Below are positions 8,303 to 30,658 of a DNA stretch of 32,489 nucleotides, piece after piece. This stretch comes from Myxococcota bacterium. Lineage in GTDB: Bacteria > Myxococcota_A > UBA9042 > DTJE01. A program made the position numbers and the translations under genes. The notes under the pieces were generated by a model that was not told the DNA's origin, made no database searches, and saw only the letters and a list, made by a program, of their open reading frames with translations. The DNA lies in the NCBI GenBank assembly GCA_029975745.1, contig JARKOL010000182.1:1-32489 (forward strand), read 5' to 3'. Every line of letters starts with the position of its first letter. The first letter of the stretch is position 1.

Positions 8303-8773
8303 ATGCCGGTCAAGGACGATCGCTGGGCGGAACGCCTTGCTGCCATCCGGGATCTGCTGGGAAGTCGATCCGTTCGACGCCAGGAGGATCTGTCGATGGC
8401 CCTGCGCAGCCAGGGGTTTTCGGTGACGCAATCCAGCGTGTCCCGGGATCTGGCGGAACTGGGGGCGATCAAGGTCGAGGGGCGGTACGTGCTGCCCATC
8501 GCTGCCGGCACGGGGTCGGGCGTCAGCGAGGTCGCCGAAGTGGCGGCGGCCCTGCGAGGGATCCGTCCGGCCGGGCCCAACCTGCTGGTGCTGCTGACGC
8601 CACCGGGCCGCGCGCAATGGGTCGGTCTGGCGATCGATCGGGCCGCGTATGCCGAGGTGGTCGGCACCATTGCCGGGGACGACACGGTGTTCGTCGCCAC
8701 CTCGGGGCGGCGGGGCCAGGAACGCGTGGTGGCGCGGCTGAACCTGGCGGCGCGGGAGGCCGGAAATGCATGA
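8303..8773 (+). CDS. argR: Arginine repressor ArgR
   Basis: Winged-helix N-terminus ([48 protein letters not shown]) and C-terminal oligomerisation/Arg-binding region ([11 protein letters not shown]); first gene of the arginine operon. Confidence 0.88.
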
Positions 8774-9974
8774 ACCCATCGTGCTGGCGTTCTCGGGTGG
8801 CCTGGACACGTCGTTCTGCGTTCCCTGGCTGATCGAGCGTCATGGCCGACCCGTGATGACCGTCACGGTCGATACCGGCGGTCTGGACGACTCGGATCGC
8901 GCGCGATTGGAGTCCCGCGCGCTGGAACTGGGAGCGAGTCGGCACGTCCTGGAGGATGCCCGGGGGGCGTTCTTCGACGACACGCTGCGGTTCCTGATCA
9001 TGGGCAACGTCCTGCGCGGTCATCTGTACCCGTTGTGCGTGGGCGCCGAGCGGACGTTGCAGGCGCGCGAGGTCGCGCGGGTCGCTCGGGAGGTGGGCGC
9101 CTGGGCGGTCGCGCACGGTTCGACCGCCGCGGGAAACGACCAGGTCCGGTTCGAGGCGGCGCTTCGGGTGCTGGCGCCGGGGATGGAACTGCTGGCGCCG
9201 ATCCGGGACGAGGGCCTGTCCCGCGAGGCCGAAACGGCATGGCTGGTCAAGCGGGGCTTCGAGGTGCCGGCGAAGACGACGGCGTACTCGATCAACCGCG
9301 GCCTGTGGGGCTGCACCATCGGCGGTCGCGAAACGAATGACACCGTCGAGTCCCTGCCCGAGGACGCGTGGGTCCTGACGCGGGGGGCGTTCGAGGGTGC
9401 GCGGGAAAGCCAGGTCCATCGACTGGCATTCGAGCGAGGGGTGCCCGTGGGGATCGACGGCCAGGCACTTTCCCCGGTGGCCCTGATCGAGCGGCTGGAC
9501 GCCCTGGCCGGCCCGTTCGGGGTCGGTCGCGGCATTCACCTGGGGGACACGATCTTCGGGTTGAAGGGGCGCGTGGCGTTCGAGGCGCCCGCCGCGACGG
9601 TGCTGATCACGGCGCATCGGGAGCTCGAGAAACTGGTGCTGACGGCGCGCCAGCAGCGGGTCAAGGATTCGGTGGCGGTGATCTATGGCGATCTGGTCCA
9701 CGAGGCCCAGGCCCTGGAGCCCGCGTGCCGCGACATCGAGGCGCTGTTCCTGCGCAGCCAGCAGCGCGTGACCGGCGAGGTGCGGTTCCGGCTGCGTCCC
9801 GGCGGGCTGTTCGTCGAGGGCGTGACGTCGGCGCATTCGCTGCGGGACGCATCGAAGGGGGTGTACGGCGAGGCGGCGGGGGAGTGGACCGCGGCGGACG
9901 CACGCGGTTTCGCCCGGATGCTGGCGATCCCGGCGATGCTCGCGGCGCGGGCCGACGGAGGGGGTGCGGCGTGA
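8766..9974 (+). CDS. argG: Argininosuccinate synthase
   Basis: [16 protein letters not shown] (PP-loop), [56 protein letters not shown]. Confidence 0.93.
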
Positions 9975-11059
9975 GAACGGTGTTCGTGGACAAGATCGGG
10001 TCCGTGACGATGAACTGCCGACTGTCTCGCGAGGTGCGCCTGGGGGACGACATTCCGGCCATCGAGGGCGGGGTGGTCGCGGTCCGGGTGCTGAATTCCA
10101 AGGGGTCCTACAACCAGTTGGAGCTGCCCTCCGGTCGGTTCTCGAAGATCAAGCCCGGCGACGTCGCGGCGGTGGCGCTGGGACATCGCAAGGCGCTGGT
10201 GGGGTATTCGGGGCATCTTCCGGCCTCGGTCCACGTGGGCGACCGATTGAACCTGCTGAACCTGGGCGGCGTGCTGGGCAAGGTGGACAGCATCAACCCG
10301 GACTTCGGCGAGCCGTTCGTCTGCGAGGTGCTGGGGCAGGTTCTGGCGTTTCCCTACCTGGGCCAACGCGTCGGCGTTCCAGCCCACATTCGCCAGGGGG
10401 CGATTCCGCTGGCGCAGACGCTGGACACGCGGGGCATCCCGGTCATCGCCATCGTCGGCAGTTCGATGAATGCCGGCAAGACGGCGGCTGCATGCTCGCT
10501 GGTTCAGGCGCTGTCGCACAAGGGGTATGTCGTGGCCGCGGGCAAGGCCACGGGGGTGTCCCTGCGCCGCGACATCCTGGCGATGGAGGATGCGGGGGCA
10601 CGGCGGACCCTGATCTTCACGGACCTGGGCATCGTCACCACGACGGCCGAAAACGCCCCGCCCGCGGCGCGAACGCTGCTGACCCAGCTTGCGGCGTCCA
10701 GCCCGGACGTGATCGTGCTGGAGCTGGGGGACGGGCTGCTGGGGCTGTACGGGGTCGATGCCATCCTGGGCGATCCGGAACTGCGCGCGTCGTTTGGCGC
10801 GGTGGTGCTGGCGGCGGCGGACCCGGTGGCCGCCTGGGGGGGCGTGCGCCTGCTGAAGGAGCGGCACGGGCTGGACACGACGGTCGTCACCGGGCCCGCG
10901 ACGGACAACGACGCGGGGATCGGACTGGTCCAGCGCCAGACCGGAATCCCGGGGCGCAACGCGCGGGCGAATCCCGCGGCGCTGGCGGACCGGGTGCTGG
11001 AGATCCTGGGGATGGCCGAGCGGCGCGCCGCGGGCGCGGGAGGCGAACTTGGCGACTGA
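9971..11059 (+). CDS. Uncharacterised P-loop protein (BioD/DUF1611-like Walker A) embedded in the arginine operon ('X')
   Basis: GTG start overlapping argG stop (GTGA 9971-9974); beta-rich N-terminal region then IAIVGSSMNAGKTAAACSLVQALSHKGYVVAAGKATG with BioD-like motif spacing (GTDTxVGKT). Confidence 0.8.
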   Translation: MRTVFVDKIGSVTMNCRLSREVRLGDDIPAIEGGVVAVRVLNSKGSYNQLELPSGRFSKIKPGDVAAVALGHRKALVGYSGHLPASVHVGDRLNLLNLGGVLGKVDSINPDFGEPFVCEVLGQVLAFPYLGQRVGVPAHIRQGAIPLAQTLDTRGIPVIAIVGSSMNAGKTAAACSLVQALSHKGYVVAAGKATGVSLRRDILAMEDAGARRTLIFTDLGIVTTTAENAPPAARTLLTQLAASSPDVIVLELGDGLLGLYGVDAILGDPELRASFGAVVLAAADPVAAWGGVRLLKERHGLDTTVVTGPATDNDAGIGLVQRQTGIPGRNARANPAALADRVLEILGMAERRAAGAGGELGD

Positions 11060-12152
11060 TGCGGCCATCGGGTTGGAAACCGCCCCAGGGAGGGAAGTTC
11101 CGATCGTGATTCTGGGGGGAACGGGCTACGTGTCCGGCGAGGCGCTGCGGCTGCTGGCGGGTCATCCGGTTTTTCGCGTGGCGGCCGTGGTCTCGAAGGG
11201 CCATGCGGGTCAGCCGATCGTCCAGGCCTTTCCGCACCTGCGCGGGGTGCTGCCGCCGGGAATGACGTTCGTGGGACCGGACGCGCCGGCGTCCTGCTGG
11301 CGCTCGGGGCATCCCGCGGGGGTGTTGGCGGCGACGCCCCACGGGGCGACCGCGGCCCTGCTGGATCGCGTGCTGGCGACGGCCGAGGCCGCCGGGGCCC
11401 AGGTGCGCGCGGTGGATCTTTCGGCGGACTTCAGGTTCGCCGATGGGGGGCGCTACCAGGCGATCTACGGGCACCCCCACGGGGCACCCCACCGGATTCC
11501 GCAGTTCACATGCATGGTGCCCGAACTCTACGCCGGCGTGCCGCCGCGGCACGCGACGCAGCCCGGGTGCTTCACGACGGCGGTCGTGATGGCGGCCTGG
11601 CCGTTCCTCCGAGCAGGCCTGGTCGAGGGCGAGGTGTTCGCGTCGGCCGTCACCGGCAGTTCCGGCAGCGGCAGGACCCCATCCGACGGGACGCATCATC
11701 CCGGGCGCCACGCCGACCTGCGGGCGTACGGATGGCTGGCCCACCGGCACGAGCCCGAGATGGCGATGCTGCTAGGGGCCGCGTGCCAGGTTCCCGAACC
11801 CGAAGTCGCGTTCGTGCCGCACTCGGGGCCCTTCGTGCGCGGCATTCACGCCACGGTGCGGATGACCTTGCGCAAGCCGGCGACCGCTTCGGACTTGGCC
11901 CAGATTGCGGCGACCGCCTATGCCGACGCGCCGTTCGTCCACGCGGGCGTCGAGCCGCCACGACTGGTCGATGTGGTCGGGACGAACCGCTGTCACCTGG
12001 GGGTTGCGGCTCGGGGAAGGACGCTGGTGGTCGCGTCGGTGATCGACAACCTGGCGAAGGGGGCGGCCGGCGGGGGCATCCAGTGGATGAATCGATTGTT
12101 CGGGTTGCCGGATGCGACCGGGCTTATGTTGGGCGGCCCCGGATGGTTCTGA
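11049..12152 (+). CDS. argC: N-acyl-gamma-glutamyl-phosphate reductase
   Basis: ILGGTGYVSGEALRLLAGHP, VDLSADFRF, PELY...ATQPGCFTTAVVMAAWP, GSSGSGRTPSDGTHHP. Start codon uncertain (TTG 11049 or GTG 11106). Confidence 0.9.
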   Translation: MATDAAIGLETAPGREVPIVILGGTGYVSGEALRLLAGHPVFRVAAVVSKGHAGQPIVQAFPHLRGVLPPGMTFVGPDAPASCWRSGHPAGVLAATPHGATAALLDRVLATAEAAGAQVRAVDLSADFRFADGGRYQAIYGHPHGAPHRIPQFTCMVPELYAGVPPRHATQPGCFTTAVVMAAWPFLRAGLVEGEVFASAVTGSSGSGRTPSDGTHHPGRHADLRAYGWLAHRHEPEMAMLLGAACQVPEPEVAFVPHSGPFVRGIHATVRMTLRKPATASDLAQIAATAYADAPFVHAGVEPPRLVDVVGTNRCHLGVAARGRTLVVASVIDNLAKGAAGGGIQWMNRLFGLPDATGLMLGGPGWF

Positions 12153-12183
12153 AGGATCGTTGCGCGTGGGCATGGGGGCTGGA

Positions 12184-13338
12184 ATGGTGACTGCCGGGAA
12201 TGGCCAGGATTCCGCGCTGCTGGACGTCTTTTCGACGATCCCGATCGAGCCGGTTCGTGGCGACGGCGTCTGGCTGGAGGCGTCCGATGGTCGGCGTTAT
12301 CTGGACTTCTATGGGGGGCATGCGGTCGCGCTGCTGGGCTATGGCCACCCGGCGCTGGTGGACGCGCTGGCCTCCCAGGCCCGGACGCTGTTCTTCCAGT
12401 CGAACCTGGTCCCGCTGGCGGTGCGCGAGCGGGCGGCGCGCGCCCTGGTTGACTTCGGGCCACCCGGCTTGTCGCGCGTCTTCTTCGTGAACTCGGGTGC
12501 CGAAGCCAACGAAAACGCGCTGCGAATCGCGTTTCGTGCCACCGGACGGCCGGTGGCCGTGGCCATCGAGGGGGCGTTTCACGGACGAACCGCGGCGGCG
12601 GCGGCCGTGACGGCCGGCTCCCAGCGGTGGAACGGGTTTCCCGCGAATCCCTTCACGGTGCGCACGGTGCCGTTCAACGACGTCGCCGCGCTGGAGGCCG
12701 CGGTCGATGACGATACGGCGGCCTTGATCGTCGAGCCTGTGCAGGGGGTCGCCGGCGCGCGGGCGGTGTCCCGGACCTTCCTGTCGCGAGCGCGCGAGGT
12801 GACGCGGCGACATCGTGCCCTGCTGATCCTGGACGAGGTCCAGTGCGGCATGGGACGCACCGGGTGGCCCTTCGCGGCCCAGGCGTACGGCGTCGAACCG
12901 GACCTGCTGACCGTCGCGAAGGGGCTGGGGGGCGGGTTTCCCGTCGGCGCGCTGCTGGTTCGCGACGAGGTCGCGGCCACGATCGGCCGGGGCGACCTGG
13001 GGACGACGTTTGGCGGCGGCCCAATGGCGTGCGCACTGGTCGAAACGGTCGTCGCGACGATTCGGGAAGGGCGCCTGCTGGACGAAGTCCGGAGGTTGTC
13101 GGCCCGGATGGCGCGGGAGTGTCTTGTCGGTCCGGTCGTTGCCGTCCAGGGCATGGGGTTCCTGCTGGGCTTGCGGACCGCGGTGCCGGCGACACGGGTG
13201 CTGGCGGGGTTGCGCGAGCGGGGCATCCTGGCCGGCGGCAGCGCCGATCCCGACGTCGTTCGGCTGCTGCCGCCCCTGGTGCTGCGCGACGAGCACGTGG
13301 ACCTGCTGGTCCAGGCGCTCAAGGAGTGGACGCCATGA
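12184..13338 (+). CDS. argD: N-acylornithine aminotransferase (class III PLP)
   Basis: FVNSGAEANENALRIAFR, IEGAFHGRT, LILDEVQCGMGRTGWPFA, TVAKGLGGGFPVGALL. Confidence 0.92.
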   Translation: MVTAGNGQDSALLDVFSTIPIEPVRGDGVWLEASDGRRYLDFYGGHAVALLGYGHPALVDALASQARTLFFQSNLVPLAVRERAARALVDFGPPGLSRVFFVNSGAEANENALRIAFRATGRPVAVAIEGAFHGRTAAAAAVTAGSQRWNGFPANPFTVRTVPFNDVAALEAAVDDDTAALIVEPVQGVAGARAVSRTFLSRAREVTRRHRALLILDEVQCGMGRTGWPFAAQAYGVEPDLLTVAKGLGGGFPVGALLVRDEVAATIGRGDLGTTFGGGPMACALVETVVATIREGRLLDEVRRLSARMARECLVGPVVAVQGMGFLLGLRTAVPATRVLAGLRERGILAGGSADPDVVRLLPPLVLRDEHVDLLVQALKEWTP

Positions 13339-14351
13339 ATCGCTTCCTGGACCTGGACGATCTGTCGGATTCGGCACTCGATGCCGTCCTGGCGCGCGCT
13401 CGGCGGCTGGAGCACTCGCCCGTGACCGACGACCTGCGCGGGCGCACCGTCGGGCTGCTGTTCCTGAATCCGTCCGTGCGCACCCTGGCCTCGATGCAGG
13501 CGGGCGTGACGCAACTGGGCGGCCAGACGTTCGTGGTCCACTCCGGTGCGGGGTCGTGGAAGCTGGAGACCCGGGACGGCGTCGTCATGGATGGCGAGGC
13601 GGCCGAGCACGTGCGCGAGGCGATTCCCGTGCTGGCGCAGTACTGCGACCTGCTGGCGGTGCGATGCTTCGCCGAGGGGCGGGATCTGGCGACCGACCTG
13701 TCGGACCGCCTGATCGCGACGATGGCGGATCTGTGTCCCAAGCCGTTCGTCAGTCTGGAGTCGTCGCTGGCCCACCCGTGCCAGGCGCTGGGGGACTACA
13801 AGACGCTGGACGACCTGGACATTCCGCGTCGCGGCGGCCGGTTCGTCCTGTCCTGGGCCTGGCATCCGAAGGCGCTGGCCTTCGCGGTTCCGGCCTCGAC
13901 CCTGGCCATGGCCGCAAGGCGCGGGATGGAGGTGACCGTGCTGCGACCCGACGGATTCGACCTGCCGGATCCGGTGATGGCTCGGGCGCGGGCCACCGCG
14001 GCCCGGTCCGGCGGCTCGATCACGGTGACGTCGGATCGCCGGGTCGCGATGGAAGGGGCCCACGTGCTGTACGCGAAGTCGTGGGCGGCGCCTGGGCACT
14101 ATGGCCGCCCCCAGGACGAGGCGTCCCTGCGCGCGCCGCTGAAGGGGATGTGGTGCGTCGATGAGCCCTGGTTTGCTTCCGCCCGGCCGGATGCGCGATT
14201 CATGCACTGCCTGCCGGTGCGACGGAACGTGAAGGTGACGGACGCGGTCCTGGACGGGCCGCGAAGCGTGGTGGTGCGGCAGGCGGGCAACCGGCTGCAC
14301 GCCCAGAAGGCGTTGCTGGTCCAGATGCTGGGACGGGAGGTGGTTCGATGA
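13335..14351 (+). CDS. argF': N-acylornithine carbamoyltransferase (AOTCase/SOTCase family)
   Basis: LFLNPSVRTLASMQAGVTQLGG, SWKLETRDGVVMDGEAAEHVREAIPVLAQYCDLLAVRCF, AHPCQALGDY, FMHCLPVRRNVKVTDAVLD; closer to remembered AOTCase/SOTCase than to OTCase. ATGA overlap with argD. Confidence 0.88.
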   Translation: MNRFLDLDDLSDSALDAVLARARRLEHSPVTDDLRGRTVGLLFLNPSVRTLASMQAGVTQLGGQTFVVHSGAGSWKLETRDGVVMDGEAAEHVREAIPVLAQYCDLLAVRCFAEGRDLATDLSDRLIATMADLCPKPFVSLESSLAHPCQALGDYKTLDDLDIPRRGGRFVLSWAWHPKALAFAVPASTLAMAARRGMEVTVLRPDGFDLPDPVMARARATAARSGGSITVTSDRRVAMEGAHVLYAKSWAAPGHYGRPQDEASLRAPLKGMWCVDEPWFASARPDARFMHCLPVRRNVKVTDAVLDGPRSVVVRQAGNRLHAQKALLVQMLGREVVR

Positions 14352-15283
14352 CTGGAGGGCCCTTCGATCCGGAGGCGGGGGTGGTCGGGTTGCGGCGGGC
14401 GTTGCCGTACATCCGGCTGTTCAAGGGGGCGACGTTCGTGATCAAGGTCGGCGGCGTGCCGTGCGCGGACCCCGAGGTGCTGCGCGACCTGGCCGAGCAG
14501 GTGGGTGTCCTGACGGCGGTGGGCATCCGCGTCGTGGTCGTCCACGGCGGCGGCCCGCAGGCGACGGCCCTGGCCCATCGACTGGGCGTTCAGACCCCGA
14601 TGGTGGGGGGGCGCCGCGTCACGGACGCCGCCGGCCTGGAAGTCGTGACGATGGCGCTGAACGGCACCATCAACACTGCGGTCCTGGCGGCGTTCCGTTC
14701 GGCCGAGGTCCCCGCGGCAGGGCTGTCGGGCATCGATGGCGGCCTGATCTACGCGCGCCGGCGACCGCCCCGCACGATGGACGTGGAGGGCCGGCCGACC
14801 GAGGTCGATTTCGGGTGGGTTGGCGACATCGTCGATGTCAACGTCGAGATTCTGGACCGTCTGCTGGACGGCGGATTCGTGCCCGTGGTCAGTCCCCTGT
14901 GCGCCGACGAGGGCGGGCAGGTGCTGAACATCAACGCGGACACCGTGGCGTCCGCCATCGCGCGGGCGCTTGGGGCCGAGAAGCTGGTGTTCCTGACCGA
15001 CATCCCGGGCCTGCTCGAGAACGCGGCCGATTCCCGCTCGCTGGTCAGCTACGTCGATCTGCCGGGCGTGGACGAGATGGAGCAGCGCGGCGCGATCACG
15101 GGCGGAATGCTGCCGAAGGTCGCGGCGGCGCGAGAGGCGCTGGGTGGGGGCGTGGCCCGCGTCCACATGGTGGGCTACCGGGTCCGGTCCGGCCTGCTGC
15201 GCGAGGTGTTCACCAACGAGGGGGCCGGCACGCTGATGGTGCGCGACCAGGCGGAGCTGCTGCCCGGGGAACTGGCGCAATGA
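14348..15283 (+). CDS. argB: N-acylglutamate kinase
   Basis: FVIKVGGVPCADPEVL, VVVVHGGGPQATALAHRLG, INADTVASAIARALGAEKLVFLTDIPGLL, ITGGMLPKVAAAREAL. ATGA overlap both sides. Confidence 0.92.
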   Translation: MTGGPFDPEAGVVGLRRALPYIRLFKGATFVIKVGGVPCADPEVLRDLAEQVGVLTAVGIRVVVVHGGGPQATALAHRLGVQTPMVGGRRVTDAAGLEVVTMALNGTINTAVLAAFRSAEVPAAGLSGIDGGLIYARRRPPRTMDVEGRPTEVDFGWVGDIVDVNVEILDRLLDGGFVPVVSPLCADEGGQVLNINADTVASAIARALGAEKLVFLTDIPGLLENAADSRSLVSYVDLPGVDEMEQRGAITGGMLPKVAAAREALGGGVARVHMVGYRVRSGLLREVFTNEGAGTLMVRDQAELLPGELAQ

Positions 15284-16386
15284 ACGATCGGGAACTGCTG
15301 GCGTTCCACCAGGAGATCGTCGCGACCCCGTCGGTGTCCCGCGACGAGGGCCGCCTGACGACGCGCATCCAGGCGTTCCTGCGCGATCGGGGCGTGTCGG
15401 TGGTGCGATACGGGGACAACCTGTACGCGCTGACGGGGGACGCGGGGCCGCTGCTGGCGTTCAACAGCCACATGGACACCGTGCCGCCCGCCGAGGGCTG
15501 GACCCGGAAGCCCTGGGAACCTTGCGTGGTCGAGGGGCGCGTGTACGGGCTGGGCAGCAACGACGCGAAGGCGTCGGTGGCCGCGATGACTGCGGCATTC
15601 CTGCGTCTTCACGCCGGCGGTGGCGCGCAGGGCTTCAGGGTCCTGCTGACCCTGGTGGTCCAGGAGGAAACCGGCGGCGCCGGGGCCGAGATCCTGGTGC
15701 CGGAACTTGCGCGTCGGGGGCTGGCTCCCGATGTCGCGGTGATCGGCGAGCCGACGGGGCTGGACGTGGCCGTGGCCCAGAAGGGGCTGCTGATGCTGGA
15801 ACTGCGCTCGGTCGGCCAGGCCTGCCACGCCGCGCACGGTCGAGCGCTGGGGGCGCGCAATGCCGTCCGGGAACTGGCCCGGGATCTGGTGGCGCTGGAA
15901 TCCGTGTCCCTGGGACCGGACGACCCGGTTCTGGGGCCGGTGACGCTGGAGCCGACGCTGCTGACCGGGGGCACCGCGCGCAACGTGGTGCCGGCCGCCG
16001 CCTCCTGTGCCCTGGATGTCCGGATCAATCCGGGACCGGATGGCGAGGCGCTGCTGGGGCGCCTGCGGGACGCCGTCCAGGGCGAGATCGCGGTTCGCAG
16101 CGATCGCCTGAAACCGTGTCGGACGGACGCGGCGCACCCCCTGGCGCGGGCGGCGTTGGCCGCGCGGCCGGGCGCGGTCGCGTTCGGATCCCGAGGGTTG
16201 TCGGACTGGGTCTATTTCCGGGATTGTCCGGCGGTCAAGGTCGGGCCGGGGCGCACCGAGCGTTCGCACACGCCGGACGAGTTCGTGCTGGAGTCGGAGA
16301 TCCTCGAGGGCGCGGCCTTCTTCGAGAGGCTGGCACTGGGCTGGGGGCGTACGGCGGTTGATGCCGCCCGGGGGGCGATGCCATGA
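15280..16386 (+). CDS. argE: M20-family N-acylcitrulline/N-acylornithine deacylase (ArgE/DapE-like)
   Basis: LLAFNSHMDTVPPAEGWTRKPW, GLGSNDAKASVAAM, LVVQEETGGAGAEIL, TGGTARNVVPAAASCALDVRINP. Confidence 0.88.
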   Translation: MNDRELLAFHQEIVATPSVSRDEGRLTTRIQAFLRDRGVSVVRYGDNLYALTGDAGPLLAFNSHMDTVPPAEGWTRKPWEPCVVEGRVYGLGSNDAKASVAAMTAAFLRLHAGGGAQGFRVLLTLVVQEETGGAGAEILVPELARRGLAPDVAVIGEPTGLDVAVAQKGLLMLELRSVGQACHAAHGRALGARNAVRELARDLVALESVSLGPDDPVLGPVTLEPTLLTGGTARNVVPAAASCALDVRINPGPDGEALLGRLRDAVQGEIAVRSDRLKPCRTDAAHPLARAALAARPGAVAFGSRGLSDWVYFRDCPAVKVGPGRTERSHTPDEFVLESEILEGAAFFERLALGWGRTAVDAARGAMP

Positions 16387-17567
16387 GCCGACTGTGGGAC
16401 CGCGGCGAGCCGCTGGACGATCGGGTTTTGCGCTACACGGCGGGCGAGGACGCGATCCTGGACGAGGCCCTGGTGGCCTACGACCTGCGGGCCTCGGCCG
16501 CCCACGCGGGCATGCTGCACCGGTGCGGGTACCTGACGGCCCGGGACCACGCCCAACTGGTCCAGGCGATGGCGGACCTGGCTGCGGCCCACGCCCAGGG
16601 CCAGTGGCGGATCGCGCCCCAGGAGGAGGACTGCCACACGGCGATCGAGAACCGCCTGACCCAGCGTCTGGGAGAACTGGGGGGGGCGATCCACCTGGGG
16701 CGCTCGCGCAATGACCAGGTGCTGGCGGCCCTGCGACTGTGGCTGAAGGACCGGCTGGAGGAACTGGCCGGGATGGCCCATGCGGTGGCGGCGGCGCTGG
16801 ACGGTCTGGCGGCCGGGCAGGGTGACCTGGCCATGCCGGGCTACACCCATGGTCAGCGGGCGATGCCGACGACCGTCGCGTTGTGGGCGGGGGGCTGGGC
16901 CGCGGAACTGCGGGATGACGCCACGGGGCTGCTGGCGGCGCGTCGCAGGGCGGATCGGAACCCGCTGGGGTCCGCGGCGGGCTTCGGCGTGCCCGTGCTG
17001 GCGCTGGATCGGGGCGTGACAACCCAGGAATTGGGGTTCGGGTCCACGCACGAACCCGTGACGGCCGTGCAGTCGTCCCGGGGCAAGGCCGAGGCGACGG
17101 CGCTGTTCGAGGCCGCGTTGCTGGCCCAGGATCTGGGCCGTCTATCGGCCGAGGTCTGCCTGTTCGCGACGGCCGAGTTCGGGTTCGTGTCCCTGCCCGT
17201 GTCCTGCACGACCGGCTCGTCCATCATGCCGCAGAAGCGGAACCCCGACGTGTTCGAGATTGCACGTGGCCGGACCGCCGAGGCCGTCGCGGCGCTGAAC
17301 GAGGTGCTGGCGGTGACGGCGAAGCTGCCCTCCGGGTATCACCGGGACTTGCAGTTGATCAAGAAGCCGCTGTTCCGGGGCCTGCAGTCGGTCCGGGACA
17401 CGGCCGAGGTGCTGGCATGGACGCTGCCTGGGCTGGTCTTTGACGCCGACCGGATGGCCGCGGCGATAGAGCCCGCGATGCGGGCGACCGAGCAGGCCTA
17501 TGAGCTGGTCCAGCAGCAGGGCGTGCCCTTCCGCGAGGCGTATCGCCGGGTCAAGGACGGCCTGTAG
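16383..17567 (+). CDS. argH: Argininosuccinate lyase
   Basis: HTAIENRLTQRLGELGGAIHLGRSRNDQVLAALRLW, TTGSSIMPQKRNPDVFEIARGR; no C-terminal acetyltransferase extension. Confidence 0.93.
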   Translation: MSRLWDRGEPLDDRVLRYTAGEDAILDEALVAYDLRASAAHAGMLHRCGYLTARDHAQLVQAMADLAAAHAQGQWRIAPQEEDCHTAIENRLTQRLGELGGAIHLGRSRNDQVLAALRLWLKDRLEELAGMAHAVAAALDGLAAGQGDLAMPGYTHGQRAMPTTVALWAGGWAAELRDDATGLLAARRRADRNPLGSAAGFGVPVLALDRGVTTQELGFGSTHEPVTAVQSSRGKAEATALFEAALLAQDLGRLSAEVCLFATAEFGFVSLPVSCTTGSSIMPQKRNPDVFEIARGRTAEAVAALNEVLAVTAKLPSGYHRDLQLIKKPLFRGLQSVRDTAEVLAWTLPGLVFDADRMAAAIEPAMRATEQAYELVQQQGVPFREAYRRVKDGL

Positions 17568-25232: not shown

Positions 25233-26543
25233 TCACGGATTCGAGGCGGTTTCGGTCCGGCCCTTCCTGCGTGCCACGACCTTGCAGACCAGCACGTAGA
25301 TGGCGTTCGACAGGCGATTCAGCCCGTGCAGCAGCGCATCGCGGTTCGCCGGGGCCAGATGCGATTCATCGCCGTGCGCGTCGGACGCGGCGATCTCGAC
25401 CTCGCGGCATGTCGCACGCAGCAGGTTCAGCTTGACGGCCGTCGCGCCCATGGTGACGTCGGGGACGACCCAGCCGACACCAAAGAATTTCATGGTGTTG
25501 TGGGACAGTCGATGCAGCTCCTCGGCGTCGAAGCCGCCCACGCTGAGGACGGGCATCGGACGACCCGAGACCTCGGCCCCCAGCAGCTGCCGCAGGAACC
25601 GCAGCACGTCCTCCAGGTCGGACACGATGTCGGCCATTCCCTCGGCATGCGCGGCGACCTGGGCGTCCAGCACCAGGGCCTGAAGCAGGTCCAGCTTCCC
25701 CCGGAAGCGGATCGCCGGGTGGCCCTTGGGCACCAGGCTGCGATTGTCGAACAGGTGGGTACACGCGTCCGGCTTTTCGGCCAGTTCCAGCCCGCTTTCC
25801 AGGATTCGGTAGGGCAGGGTGCCGCCGGCGCCCTTGACCGCACGCGTCCGGGCAACCGAGGCGGTCAGGCATTCCAGGTCCGGTGCCGGCGTGACGACGC
25901 GCGGCCGCACCGCCAGGTCCACCACGGTGTTCTGGAACGCGCTGGCCGCGGCCTGGACGGACTCGATCGAGCCGGTCAGCAGCCCGCCCGCGTAGTTCGT
26001 TTCCGACGGGGGGGCATAGAAGACCTTCAGATCGACTTCGGCGGCCTTCAATGCGGCATCCAGGCCCAGGGTCGCCTCGATGGGCGGGGCGATCAGGTAC
26101 GCCATCGGGGTTCCGACGGGCACCCCCGCCAGACCCGCCAGGTATCGACCGACCGACGGGATCACGTGCGGGAAGAAGGCCAGCTTGCCCGCCTCGTCCG
26201 CGGCATAGAACCAGGCGGAGGTCTCCAGGTACCCCAGGGCCGCGGACAGTCCGCTGGCGACGATCTCCTCGTCGGCCGCGGCCAGGATGCCGATCACCTC
26301 GCCCGACAGCGGCCCCGACGCGTGCGCGGCCCCCGCGTAGAAGGAGCGGGCATAGACGACATCCACCTCGGCCGCCTTGGTCCCCGCGTCCAGCGCGGTG
26401 TACAGCGCATCGTCGCTGGTGCAGGTGATCAGCCCCAAGGCCCGGTGGTGGGGCTGCAACTTCAGGTCGCGCGCCAGCTGCGGATCCACGTTCGGGATCG
26501 CCCGCAGGCCCAGCACGCGCGGCTTGATGGGTTCCAGGATCAT
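25233..26543 (-). CDS. EutL-EutT fusion: N-terminal EutL (BMC-T shell) domain, C-terminal EutT-type cob(I)alamin adenosyltransferase-like domain
   Basis: aa 1-~214: LGLRAIPNVDPQLARDLKLQPHHRALGLITCTSDD...VYARSFYAGAAHASGPLSGEVIGIL...PMAYLIAPPIEATLGLDAALKAAEVDLKVFYAPPSETNYAGGLLTGS (EutL). aa ~250-436: EKPDACTHLFDNRSLVPKGHPAIRFRGKLDLLQALVLDAQV...LHRLSHNTMKFFG...LNLLRATCREVEIAA...LLHGLNRLSNAIYVLVCKVV (EutT-like). One uninterrupted frame. Confidence 0.85.
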   Translation of the reverse strand: MILEPIKPRVLGLRAIPNVDPQLARDLKLQPHHRALGLITCTSDDALYTALDAGTKAAEVDVVYARSFYAGAAHASGPLSGEVIGILAAADEEIVASGLSAALGYLETSAWFYAADEAGKLAFFPHVIPSVGRYLAGLAGVPVGTPMAYLIAPPIEATLGLDAALKAAEVDLKVFYAPPSETNYAGGLLTGSIESVQAAASAFQNTVVDLAVRPRVVTPAPDLECLTASVARTRAVKGAGGTLPYRILESGLELAEKPDACTHLFDNRSLVPKGHPAIRFRGKLDLLQALVLDAQVAAHAEGMADIVSDLEDVLRFLRQLLGAEVSGRPMPVLSVGGFDAEELHRLSHNTMKFFGVGWVVPDVTMGATAVKLNLLRATCREVEIAASDAHGDESHLAPANRDALLHGLNRLSNAIYVLVCKVVARRKGRTETASNP

Positions 26544-26546
26544 CGG

Positions 26547-27452
26547 TCACCCGCCGGTCGCATCGACGCCGGTCCGTTTGTCCTTGAGTGCCCGCAGCAC
26601 GCCCTGGACCAGTTGGCCCGCGGCCTCGGCGGGCGGCAGGCCCCCGGCGTGGATGTTCGAGGTGACGTTGCGCATCGCCTCGTTGAATTGGCGGACCTTC
26701 ATGTACGTGACGTAGCCGCCCATCGACTCGGCGGTCTTCAGGCCCGGCCGCTCGCCGACGAACAGCAGCAGCACCTCGGCCCCCGCCAGCCGCGCCACCT
26801 CGTCGGCGACGACGACCCGGCCCAGATTCACCAGAAACGGCGTGCCCAGGCGGATTCCCGCGCGCGTCAGTTCGTCGGTGATGCGCGGCAGGATGATCGG
26901 CAGGTTCGCCGTCAGCGCGGCCGCGGACAGGCCGTCGCAGCAGACGATCTGGACCTGGGGCGCGTGGACGCCCCGCTTCTGGACGATTTCGCGGGAGGCG
27001 TCGTTCAGGCGCCTGCCCAGGTCCGGCCGCTTCAGGAATTCGGCGCGATCCCGCGCCGCCGACTGCAGGGACACCAGGCCCAGTTTCGCGACCACCGCCG
27101 GATCGACCGACGACGACACGGCATCCTTGGCCGCCGCATGGTCGGTCAGGAATCGCAATAGCGTGTCGGTGCGGTAGCGGACGCCCGCGGCGCCGACGCC
27201 CAGCCGGGCGGGGGTCCGCTCCAGGTAGTAGGCTCGCGTACCCACGGGGCGCCAGGAGGCCAGCACCGGGGGCTGGGCGGGCGATGCCCCCATCCACGCG
27301 GCGGCGCGCTTGGCCAGCGCCAGGTCCGCCGGGGAACGTCGCGGGTCGGGGCGCACCCGCTCCAGGCGCGCCTTCTCGGCCTCGGCTTCCTGGCCGGACA
27401 AGGCGCCGACCACGACCGCCCGGACCAGTTCGCGCAGTTCCCGCTCGTCCAT
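26547..27452 (-). CDS. eutC: Ethanolamine ammonia-lyase small (light) subunit
   Basis: TPARLGVGAAGVRYRTDTLLRFLTDHAAAKDAV, VQIVCCDGLSAAALTANL, FVGERPGLKTAESMGGYVTYMKVRQFNEAMRNVTSNIHAGGLPP. Confidence 0.92.
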   Translation of the reverse strand: MDERELRELVRAVVVGALSGQEAEAEKARLERVRPDPRRSPADLALAKRAAAWMGASPAQPPVLASWRPVGTRAYYLERTPARLGVGAAGVRYRTDTLLRFLTDHAAAKDAVSSSVDPAVVAKLGLVSLQSAARDRAEFLKRPDLGRRLNDASREIVQKRGVHAPQVQIVCCDGLSAAALTANLPIILPRITDELTRAGIRLGTPFLVNLGRVVVADEVARLAGAEVLLLFVGERPGLKTAESMGGYVTYMKVRQFNEAMRNVTSNIHAGGLPPAEAAGQLVQGVLRALKDKRTGVDATGG

Positions 27453-27489: not shown

Positions 27490-28851
27490 CTACAAGAACA
27501 CCCGCATGTCCCCGGCCAGACCCGTCAGCCGACCGTCCTTGATCAAGCCCAGCCGCTCCATCCACGCCTCGAACTCCGGCGTGGGACGCAGTCCCAGCAG
27601 CTCGCGAAGCGCCGCGTTGTCGTGGAACGACGTGGACTGGTAGTTCAGCATGATGTCGTCGCCCATCGGCAGGCCCATGAAGAAGTTGCAGCCCGCCGAC
27701 GCCAGCAGCACGGCCAGGTTCTCCAGGTCGTTCTGGTCGGCGTCCATGTGGTTCGTGTAGCAGACGTCGCACCCCATCGGCAGGCCGTGCAGCTTGCCCA
27801 TGAAGTGGTCCTCGAGGCCGGCGCGGGCGACCTGCTTGCCGTTGAACAGGTACTCGGGCCCGATGAATCCGACGACCGTGTTCACCATGAACGGCTTGTA
27901 GTGGCGCGCCAGGCCGTAGCAGCGCGCCTCCATGACCACCTGGTCGGCACCGTGGTGGCCGCCGCTGGACAGCTCGGACCCCTGGCCCGTCTCGAAGTAC
28001 ATCAGGTTCGGGCCGGGGGCGGTGCCCTTTTCGGCGATCATGGCCGCGGCTTCGTCCAGCATCGCGTTGGTGATGCCGAAGGCGTTGCAACTGATCTCGC
28101 TGCCGGCCAGGCTCTGGAACATCACGTCCATGGGGGCGCCGACCTTCAGCGCCTCCATCTGGGTCGTGACGTGGGCCAGGCAGCAGATCTGGGTCGGCAC
28201 CGCCCAGGCGCGGGTGAACTCGTACAGGTTTTCCAGCACGGCCCGCGTGGCCTCGACCGTGTCCGTCACGGGGTTGACGCCGATCAGCGCGTCGCCCGAG
28301 CCCCAGGACAGCCCCTCCATCGTCGAGGCCAGGATGCCGTGGGGGTCGTCGGTCGTGTGGTTCGGCTGCAGCCGGACGCTGTGGCGACCGCGCAGGCCCA
28401 GCGTGGTGTTCGCGTGGGTGACCACCCGCATCTTCGAACCCGCCAGAATCAGGTCCAGGTTGGACATCAACTTGGCGACCGCGGCGATGCATTCGCTGGT
28501 CAGGCCCCGGCCGATCGCCAGCATGTCCTCGCCGGTGGTCGTGGGCGCCAGCAGGTGTTCGCGCAACTGCGCCACGGTCCAATCCTTGACCTGGGCGAAG
28601 CGCGTCTTGTCCAGATCGTCCTCGATCAGTCGAGTGACTTCGTCCTGTTCGTAGGGCGCGACGGGGCTTTCGCGCAGTTCGTTCAGTCGGACCTCGGCAA
28701 GCACCTGGCGCGCGGCGACTCGCTCCGCAGCGTTCTCGGCGGCGACACCTGCCAGTTCGTCGCCGGACTTGAGCTCGTTGGCCTTGGCCAGGACCTCCTT
28801 CAGGTCCCGGAAGGTGTAGTGTCGGCTCCGAACTGTGGTCGTCCGATTCAT
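27490..28851 (-). CDS. eutB: Ethanolamine ammonia-lyase large (heavy) subunit
   Basis: TLGLRGRHSVRLQPNHTTDDPHGILASTMEGLSWGSGDALIGVNPVTD, MFQSLAGSEISCNAFGI, YFETGQGSELSSGGHHGADQVVMEARCYGLAR, GCDVCYTNHMDADQNDLENLAVLLASAGCNFFMGLPMGDDIMLNYQSTSFHD. Confidence 0.95.
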   Translation of the reverse strand: MNRTTTVRSRHYTFRDLKEVLAKANELKSGDELAGVAAENAAERVAARQVLAEVRLNELRESPVAPYEQDEVTRLIEDDLDKTRFAQVKDWTVAQLREHLLAPTTTGEDMLAIGRGLTSECIAAVAKLMSNLDLILAGSKMRVVTHANTTLGLRGRHSVRLQPNHTTDDPHGILASTMEGLSWGSGDALIGVNPVTDTVEATRAVLENLYEFTRAWAVPTQICCLAHVTTQMEALKVGAPMDVMFQSLAGSEISCNAFGITNAMLDEAAAMIAEKGTAPGPNLMYFETGQGSELSSGGHHGADQVVMEARCYGLARHYKPFMVNTVVGFIGPEYLFNGKQVARAGLEDHFMGKLHGLPMGCDVCYTNHMDADQNDLENLAVLLASAGCNFFMGLPMGDDIMLNYQSTSFHDNAALRELLGLRPTPEFEAWMERLGLIKDGRLTGLAGDMRVFL

Positions 28852-29068
28852 GCGGGCAAGGGTACCCGGGGACGGGCTCGCGCGTCAATCACGTCGGTGC
28901 CGGGATTGCCCAGCACGGTGTCCCTCGGACGCCGGCTTCGACGGGCCCGTTTGCCCCGTCGGCGGGAATCGCCCTAAGTGCCTGCATGAACAGACGGATC
29001 GAACGGTCCGATTTGACGGGGCAATCCGGATCCTGAATTCTGTGGTTTCCAGGACTTGGAGAATCGTT

Positions 29069-30658
29069 GTGGCCCACATCCTGAACCCTGACGAGAACGT
29101 GCTGGTGTCGATCGACCCGGCCACGCTGGAACCGCTGGGCCGGGAACCCCTGGCGACCGCCGAGGACGTTCGCATGGCCGTGGCGCGCGCGGACGCGGCG
29201 TTCCCCGCCTGGGCGGCCCTGACCGTGGCGCAACGTGCCGCGTTCCTGCTGCGCGCGCGGGACGACATGCTGGCGCGCCTGGACGAGGTCTGTGCCCTGA
29301 TCTCGGCCGAAAACGGCAAGCCGCGCACCGAGGCCTTGACCGCCGAGGTCCACGTGGTGGCCGAGTTGATCACCCTGTACGCGAAGCGGGCGCCGTCCCT
29401 GCTGGCGGACCGCCCGATTCCCTTGGCGAATCCCCTGCTGGCCCGCATGAAGTCGTCGCGGATCGCGTACGAGCCGCTGGGCGTCGTCAGCGTGGTCTCG
29501 CCCTGGAACTACCCGTTCGCCATCCCGATGTCCGGAATCGCGATGGCGCTGCTGGCCGGCAACACCGTCGTGTTCAAGCCGGCCTCGGACGCGGCGCTCG
29601 TCGGTCGGATGATCGACCGGATCCTGAACGTCGGGGGCGGGCTGCCCGCGGGCGTGCTGAACACGGTGATTGCGACGGGCGCCTCGATGGGGGAAACGCT
29701 GTTCTCGCCACCCATCCGCAAGGTCGTCTTCACCGGCAGCACCGCGGTCGGACGACGGATCCAGGAGATTGCGGCTCGGCACTTCATTCCGACGGTCATG
29801 GAACTGGGTGGCAAGGACGCGATGATCGTCTGTCGCGACGCCGACCTGGACCTGGCCGCCCAGGGCGCGGTCTGGGGGGCGTTCACCAACTGCGGTCAGG
29901 TCTGCGCCTCGGTCGAACGCGTCTATGTCGATCGCGAAGTCCACGACGCGTTCGTCGAAAAGGTCGTGGCGGTGGCGTCGCGTCTTCGCGTGGGGCGGGA
30001 CTCGGGCGAACACGACATCGACCTGGGGCCGCTGGCGAACGCGTCCCAGCGCGACCTGGTGGCCCGGCACGTCGCGGACGCCGTGGCGAAGGGGGCGCGC
30101 ATCCGGGTTGGTGGGCATCCGCCCGAGGGGCTGTCGGGCTACTTCTTCATGCCCACGGTGCTGACGGAATGTGACCACTCGATGCAGGCGGTGGTGGAAG
30201 AAACGTTCGGCCCTCTGCTGCCGATCCTGTCGTATTCCACCGAGGACGAAGCGGTGCGGCAGGCCAACGACTCGATCTATGGCCTCGGCGCCTCGGTGTG
30301 GACAAGGGACCGGGAACGCGGACTGGCCCTGGCGCGACGGCTTCAGGCCGGGTCCGTGCTGGTGAATGACGTCACGTACTCCTACGGGCTGGTCGATACG
30401 CCGTGGCAGGGCATGAAGGAATCCGGCATGGGGCGCTCGCACTCGGACGAGGGGTTGCTGGAGTTCGTCTATCCCAAGCACATCAACATCGATCGGTCGC
30501 CGGCGTTCATGCGTCGTCGAATGTGGTGGTTCCCGTACTCGACGACCGGGTACGAACTGCTGAAGAAGGTGGTCCGGGCCTTCGTGGAACCCCTGCGTCT
30601 GCCGCGACTGCTTGCGACCGTGTTGGCCAGCAAGGCGGCCCGCAAGATCCTGTATTGA
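29069..30658 (+). CDS. NAD(P)-dependent aldehyde dehydrogenase (classical, non-CoA-acylating type)
   Basis: SPWNYPFAIPMSGIAMALLAGNTVVFKPA, VFTGSTAVGRRI, VMELGGKDAMIV, FTNCGQVCASVERVYV, VVEETFGPLLPIL. GTG start inferred. Confidence 0.88.
   Translation: MAHILNPDENVLVSIDPATLEPLGREPLATAEDVRMAVARADAAFPAWAALTVAQRAAFLLRARDDMLARLDEVCALISAENGKPRTEALTAEVHVVAELITLYAKRAPSLLADRPIPLANPLLARMKSSRIAYEPLGVVSVVSPWNYPFAIPMSGIAMALLAGNTVVFKPASDAALVGRMIDRILNVGGGLPAGVLNTVIATGASMGETLFSPPIRKVVFTGSTAVGRRIQEIAARHFIPTVMELGGKDAMIVCRDADLDLAAQGAVWGAFTNCGQVCASVERVYVDREVHDAFVEKVVAVASRLRVGRDSGEHDIDLGPLANASQRDLVARHVADAVAKGARIRVGGHPPEGLSGYFFMPTVLTECDHSMQAVVEETFGPLLPILSYSTEDEAVRQANDSIYGLGASVWTRDRERGLALARRLQAGSVLVNDVTYSYGLVDTPWQGMKESGMGRSHSDEGLLEFVYPKHINIDRSPAFMRRRMWWFPYSTTGYELLKKVVRAFVEPLRLPRLLATVLASKAARKILY

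Follow-up and report, generated by a model that had tools for sequence, protein, structure and literature searches.

A EutL shell protein fused to a EutT-type adenosyltransferase domain in Myxococcota, a probable shell-anchored enzyme of a satellite ethanolamine module

A single gene of a Myxococcota bacterium joins the microcompartment shell protein EutL to a EutT-type cobalamin adenosyltransferase domain, and the EutL part occupies the place in which standalone EutT proteins carry an N-terminal module resembling the shell-binding region of EutQ. We consider it probable, at roughly 65%, that the fusion is a shell-anchored ATP:cob(I)alamin adenosyltransferase of a Haliangium-type microcompartment (BMC) that supplies encapsulated ethanolamine ammonia-lyase (EutBC), the covalent link replacing the docking module. 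The evidence for this reading comes from the gene and its neighborhood, from its recurrence in related genomes, and from comparison with the standalone members of both protein families.

The fusion gene and its two halves

The window, that is, the whole stretch of 32,489 nucleotides that was analyzed, encodes the fusion on the minus strand at 25233 to 26543, with an ATG at 26541 to 26543 and a stop codon at 25233 to 25235. As the earlier note had described, without giving the strand, this is one uninterrupted frame of 436 codons, encoding 436 amino acids. It closes a set of three genes on one strand, in the order eutB-eutC-eutLT, with gaps of 37 and 3 bases. The large subunit of ethanolamine ammonia-lyase is encoded by eutB (27490 to 28851, minus strand; PF06751, 696 bits) and the small subunit by eutC (26547 to 27452, minus strand; PF05985), the stop of which lies 3 bases before the start of the fusion, so the placement of EutBC just upstream was also correct. 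The N terminus of EutC reads as an EutC-type encapsulation peptide, MDERELRELVRAVVVGALSG, which resembles that of E. coli EutC (MDQKQIEEIVRSVMASMG) and is alike in the other fusion loci compared; in Salmonella, residues 2 to 19 of EutC constitute the encapsulation peptide (PMC12487888).

No shell gene, EutA, EutH, or EutQ adjoins the eutB-eutC-eutLT locus of the window, and no cobalamin riboswitch or other RNA was found in the window at Rfam gathering scores. The neighbor of eutB on the other side is a divergent aldehyde dehydrogenase gene (29033 to 30658, plus strand), the product of which falls below all equivalog cutoffs and scores with succinate-semialdehyde and aminobutyraldehyde types, not with the acylating EutE kind; a gene of this kind occupies the same place in one related contig (L043). 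Further away, at 8766 to 17567 (plus strand), the window carries a nearly back-to-back run of genes whose translations, read by eye, are arginine biosynthesis-like, with argG-, argC-, argD-, argF/OTC-, argB-, argE/dapE-, and argH-like frames.

The assignment of the first ~214 residues to EutL, already proposed in the earlier note, is well borne out. Residues 5 to 215 (25899 to 26531, minus strand) match the NCBIfam EutL model TIGR04502 with 297.4 bits, just below the cutoff of 300, and the EutL model PRK15405 with 287 bits against a cutoff of 198. This half is of full length and contains two stretches of the BMC domain PF00936. Its best matches among solved structures are EutL crystal structures, both by sequence (E = 5e-63) and, for the monomer model, by fold (Foldseek, E = 1e-17). 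It is about 42 to 51% identical to crystallized EutL and, like EutL, is encoded beside eutC, but it differs in its C-terminal enzyme domain and in the absence of a surrounding eut shell operon.

The two halves are joined by a linker at about residues 216 to 253 (25785 to 25898, minus strand), which varies in both sequence and length in the alignment of the fusions. AlphaFold2 predicts residues 214 to 240 with a pLDDT below 50; it models the C-terminal domain confidently, as a bundle of helices with pLDDT values mostly above 85, and it gives the halves no confident relative placement (pTM, 0.46).

The last ~185 residues had been read as EutT, and this too is upheld by profile and fold. The core of this half, residues 254 to 425 (25269 to 25784, minus strand), matches the EutT model PRK15020 (E = 3.6e-29), and residues 262 to 420 match PF01923 (Cob_adeno_trans) with 44.4 bits against a cutoff of 24 (E = 2.5e-11). 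By fold, the domain matches the human adenosyltransferase ATR (6d5x; Foldseek, E = 7e-4). A chance resemblance of the C-terminal half to EutT is ruled out by these three matches. A phmmer search of the PDB with the whole fusion protein found no adenosyltransferase, and the A1 profile gave only a weak match there, to 1nog (E = 0.02). The EutT equivalog cutoff of 226 bits (NF011595) is missed, at 101.7 bits over model positions 87 to 251 of 267, and is reached by no member of the class, in part because the N-terminal region of the EutT model is absent from the fusion. The nearest annotated relative among plasmid records is a Listeria EutT, with 38.5% identity over the whole C-terminal domain.

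A conserved active site

The fused domain aligns with EutT over its full length and shares its invariant residues: D285, R376, R380, E383, and N409 (fusion numbering) do not vary in any of the fused and standalone EutT sequences compared. The HX11CCX2C stretch of the E. coli and Pseudomonas enzymes is missing, but it is likewise missing from the EutT of Listeria and Clostridioides difficile. With the PduO type, to which human ATR and PduO belong, the domain has in common the fold and the R-x3-R-x2-E and LNR-S motifs, whereas it belongs to the EutT branch and does not reach back to the N-terminal ATP motif of that type, its profile match beginning at position 11. The window's genome encodes an ordinary PduO-type enzyme elsewhere, and in an hhalign comparison R376-x3-R380-x2-E383 pairs with the R-x3-R-x2-E of that enzyme, R380 and E383 lining up with the CRxxE motif of the type. 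In human ATR, R190 is catalytic and E193 contacts adenine (PMC8633584); by our own motif-based correspondence, these match the second R and the E of R-x3-R-x2-E.

Given this second adenosyltransferase, the fused domain need not be the sole source of adenosylcobalamin (AdoCbl), which also lends some weight to a noncatalytic role, in which the domain would serve as a corrinoid-binding, chaperone, or trimerization module that loads or off-loads the EutBC cofactor. ATR-type proteins are also AdoCbl chaperones (PMC8633584), and where EutA is lacking something else must handle damaged cofactor. However, neither the catalytic arginine nor the adenine-contacting glutamate varies in any of the fused and standalone sequences compared, and dN/dS of the EutT part is low (0.08 to 0.16 in the four computable pairs, synonymous sites being saturated in the fifth), which makes the noncatalytic role quite improbable. 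In most of these pairs, the linker is less constrained than the EutT domain.

Distribution and descent of the fusion

A survey for further genomes with the fusion, as the earlier note had advised, was productive. Within the class, 36 of 52 genomes match the fusion query, 15 with the full fusion (13 in the window's family and 2 in another) and 21 with EutL only, and the EutT model finds exactly those 15 genomes, always as a fusion. Across the phylum, 22 of 379 genomes have a EutT domain, which is fused in one frame in 21 and split in one, where the EutL and EutT parts sit at two contig ends; the search of all 379 turned up no standalone EutT. The six fusions beyond the class comprise one nearer relative and five that are about 42 to 47% identical in the EutT half. 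A pattern scan of further contigs returned 15 fusion loci, named mostly as Myxococcales, Myxococcota, and Deltaproteobacteria with a few other or doubtful names, as well as three standalone EutT, in a deltaproteobacterial metagenome-assembled genome (L058), Pseudomonas (L059), and a clostridial one (L060). The patterns used were close to the window's clade, and the 15 loci, which probably overlap with the genomes surveyed above, are left out of the counts.

The genome to which the window belongs is a draft in 408 contigs, in which a frameshift or misassembly could in principle have joined two neighboring genes. Such an artifact would, however, have to recur as the same uninterrupted frame in 21 genomes, 19 of them outside the window's genus and with EutT-half identity down to ~42%, and under purifying selection on both halves, so that its likelihood is negligible; with the same frame seen in 15 of the 52 class genomes and in six more of the phylum, a frameshift is excluded even without read mapping.

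Of the 22 genomes with a EutT domain, 20 were seen to have EutB: in 13 genomes of the class it adjoins the fusion, and in seven others it was located by search. In the remaining two, the contig ends before eutB could appear. In four genomes (G113, G267, G323, and G332), eutB lies on another contig than eutLT, and only eutC or neither gene adjoins the fusion.

In a tree with eight standalone EutT, the fused EutT domains group as a single clade (support, 99/98). The EutL proteins of the phylum likewise form one group, which comprises two groups of fusions and EutL-only lineages. This pattern would fit either a single fusion with a later single loss of EutT or a single fusion in the sister lineage of the EutL-only ones. 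Sister lineages retain EutBC and EutL without any EutT, which indicates that the EutT domain is dispensable in related systems. The second fusion group (L093 to L097) has a C-terminal tail of ~20 residues, RRxGPxxGWxP, which the window's group lacks.

Docking, sidedness, and the microcompartment

All eight standalone EutT proteins compared open with an N-terminal module of ~50 residues (ITExxLR...LTPSAxxxLxxRxI). A profile search found no match to this EutQ-like module in the fusion, and EutL stands in its place. In pairwise comparison, the EutT N terminus resembles EutQ over residues 1 to 50 (z values of 6.6 and 5.5, with 0 of 2,000 shuffles for the former; the single-profile test was nonsignificant at E = 0.47), and the module also matches the C terminus of the ethanolamine protein family TIGR02536 (E = 1e-7). 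The N-terminal domain of EutQ is a shell-cargo adaptor, and in Salmonella its residues 9 to 41 (H1/H2) bind the shell; the authors' model places them where EutL and EutM meet (PMC12487888). Since the N terminus of canonical EutT is homologous to this H1/H2 region, we infer that the N-terminal module likewise attaches canonical EutT to the shell. EutQ itself is found in none of the 22 genomes with EutT, two weak partial cupin matches aside; both the adaptor and its EutT counterpart are missing, and EutL takes the place. The suggestion in the earlier note that cofactor synthesis is fixed to a facet of the microcompartment thus gains support from this comparison. The alternative raised there was that cofactor delivery might be coupled to the pore. 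Seen with a Listeria gene (L113:9029-9601), a module of ~45 residues (ITExdv..lTPlAkdyL.e..I) recurs at the N termini of EutT and EutQ and at the C termini of TIGR02536 proteins, and it may serve Eut proteins more generally for docking on the shell.

We therefore envisage, on the preferred reading of a shell-anchored enzyme, that the EutL half would form trimeric BMC-T tiles in a facet of a Haliangium-type BMC encoded elsewhere in the genome, and that the EutT half would hang off the C terminus of the tile via a flexible linker of ~35 residues. There it would convert corrinoid to AdoCbl beside encapsulated EutBC, the cofactor of which is damaged in turnover, the covalent link taking over from the docking module that would hold ordinary EutT to the shell.

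On which side of the shell the enzyme would reside can be approached by analogy. EutL is a circularly permuted BMC-T of the BMC-Tsp type (PMC8217296); with permutation of the PduU kind, the termini come to lie on the convex side (PMC6109187), and the convex side faces the lumen (PMC11157265). Taken together, these relations suggest that the EutT domain is on the lumen side. They also argue against an anchored enzyme that faces the cytosol, drawing on cytosolic ATP and corrinoid and passing AdoCbl inward through the EutL pore. Such an arrangement would suit an ATP-using enzyme, given that shells are believed to let little ATP through (PMC11334477, PMC12487888) and that no EutQ was found to make ATP inside, and it would make use of the EutL pore that has been proposed to admit AdoCbl (PMC5821096). 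On balance, we regard the cytosolic orientation as unlikely.

A more elaborate version of the shell-anchored enzyme can be imagined. Both EutL and ATR-type enzymes are trimers, which makes a coaxial stack over the pore possible, and EutL is presumably the cobalamin-bound shell protein of the 2014 crystallographic work. The title of that work (Thompson 2014, cited in PMC5853799) reports a shell protein crystallized with cobalamin. In such a two-story, 3-fold device, an adenosyltransferase trimer would sit over the EutL pore, and corrinoid passing the gate would receive its adenosyl group at the mouth of the pore and then be transferred to EutBC. This geometry is a tentative possibility that we rather doubt; if it were true, the shell tile itself would be the cofactor-loading enzyme.

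The earlier note had missed the absence of EutA, EutQ, and other shell genes from the locus, which resembles a satellite of a BMC encoded elsewhere. EutA is absent beside the locus, and none of the 22 genomes with the EutT domain has a recognizable one; its model PF06277 gives only short partial matches (~40 to 75 of 475 positions), which we read as FtsA-like ATPases. Shell vertex proteins (BMC-P) are encoded in all 22 genomes with the EutT domain. In the window's genome, another contig (C155) carries a PduP/EutE-like acylating aldehyde dehydrogenase, a EutM-like BMC-H, a BMC-P, and CcmP-like and PduT-like BMC-T genes, and the composition of this main BMC, with its CcmP-like BMC-T, EutM-like BMC-H, and PduP/EutE-like dehydrogenase, appears to fit the HO type. 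Two tandem BMC domains are also encoded by a second gene, on contig C73 (L023:6266-6772, minus strand) and away from the main BMC locus, which is possibly another satellite shell gene. Sutter et al. 2021 (PMC8217296) describe EutL-containing "EUT modules" that accompany HO BMCs and, more broadly, HO/SPU BMCs as satellites and in which eutB, eutC, and a EutL-type BMC-T are distal from the main BMC locus, as here; the window's module differs in lacking EutA, and a EutL-EutT fusion is unmentioned in the main text of that paper. Most likely, then, a Haliangium-type BMC has EutBC-EutLT as its satellite module for ethanolamine, and the adenosyltransferase would be a permanent part of the shell and provide AdoCbl to EutBC.

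The earlier note knew of no described EutL-EutT fusion, and we likewise found no published description in a search of open-access main texts. Both domains and the idea of satellite modules were already known; what is new is that the two domains are covalently joined, that this union is old, and that it replaces the docking module. The finding bears on how B12-dependent microcompartments obtain and repair AdoCbl behind a shell that is thought to be poorly crossed by ATP and corrinoids. In this natural and old fusion, a proposed cofactor gate, EutL, is genetically tied to an adenosyltransferase, and sidedness, stoichiometry, and channeling can all be tested on one protein. Likewise, it offers a natural precedent for the loading of an enzyme by fusion to a BMC-T tile.
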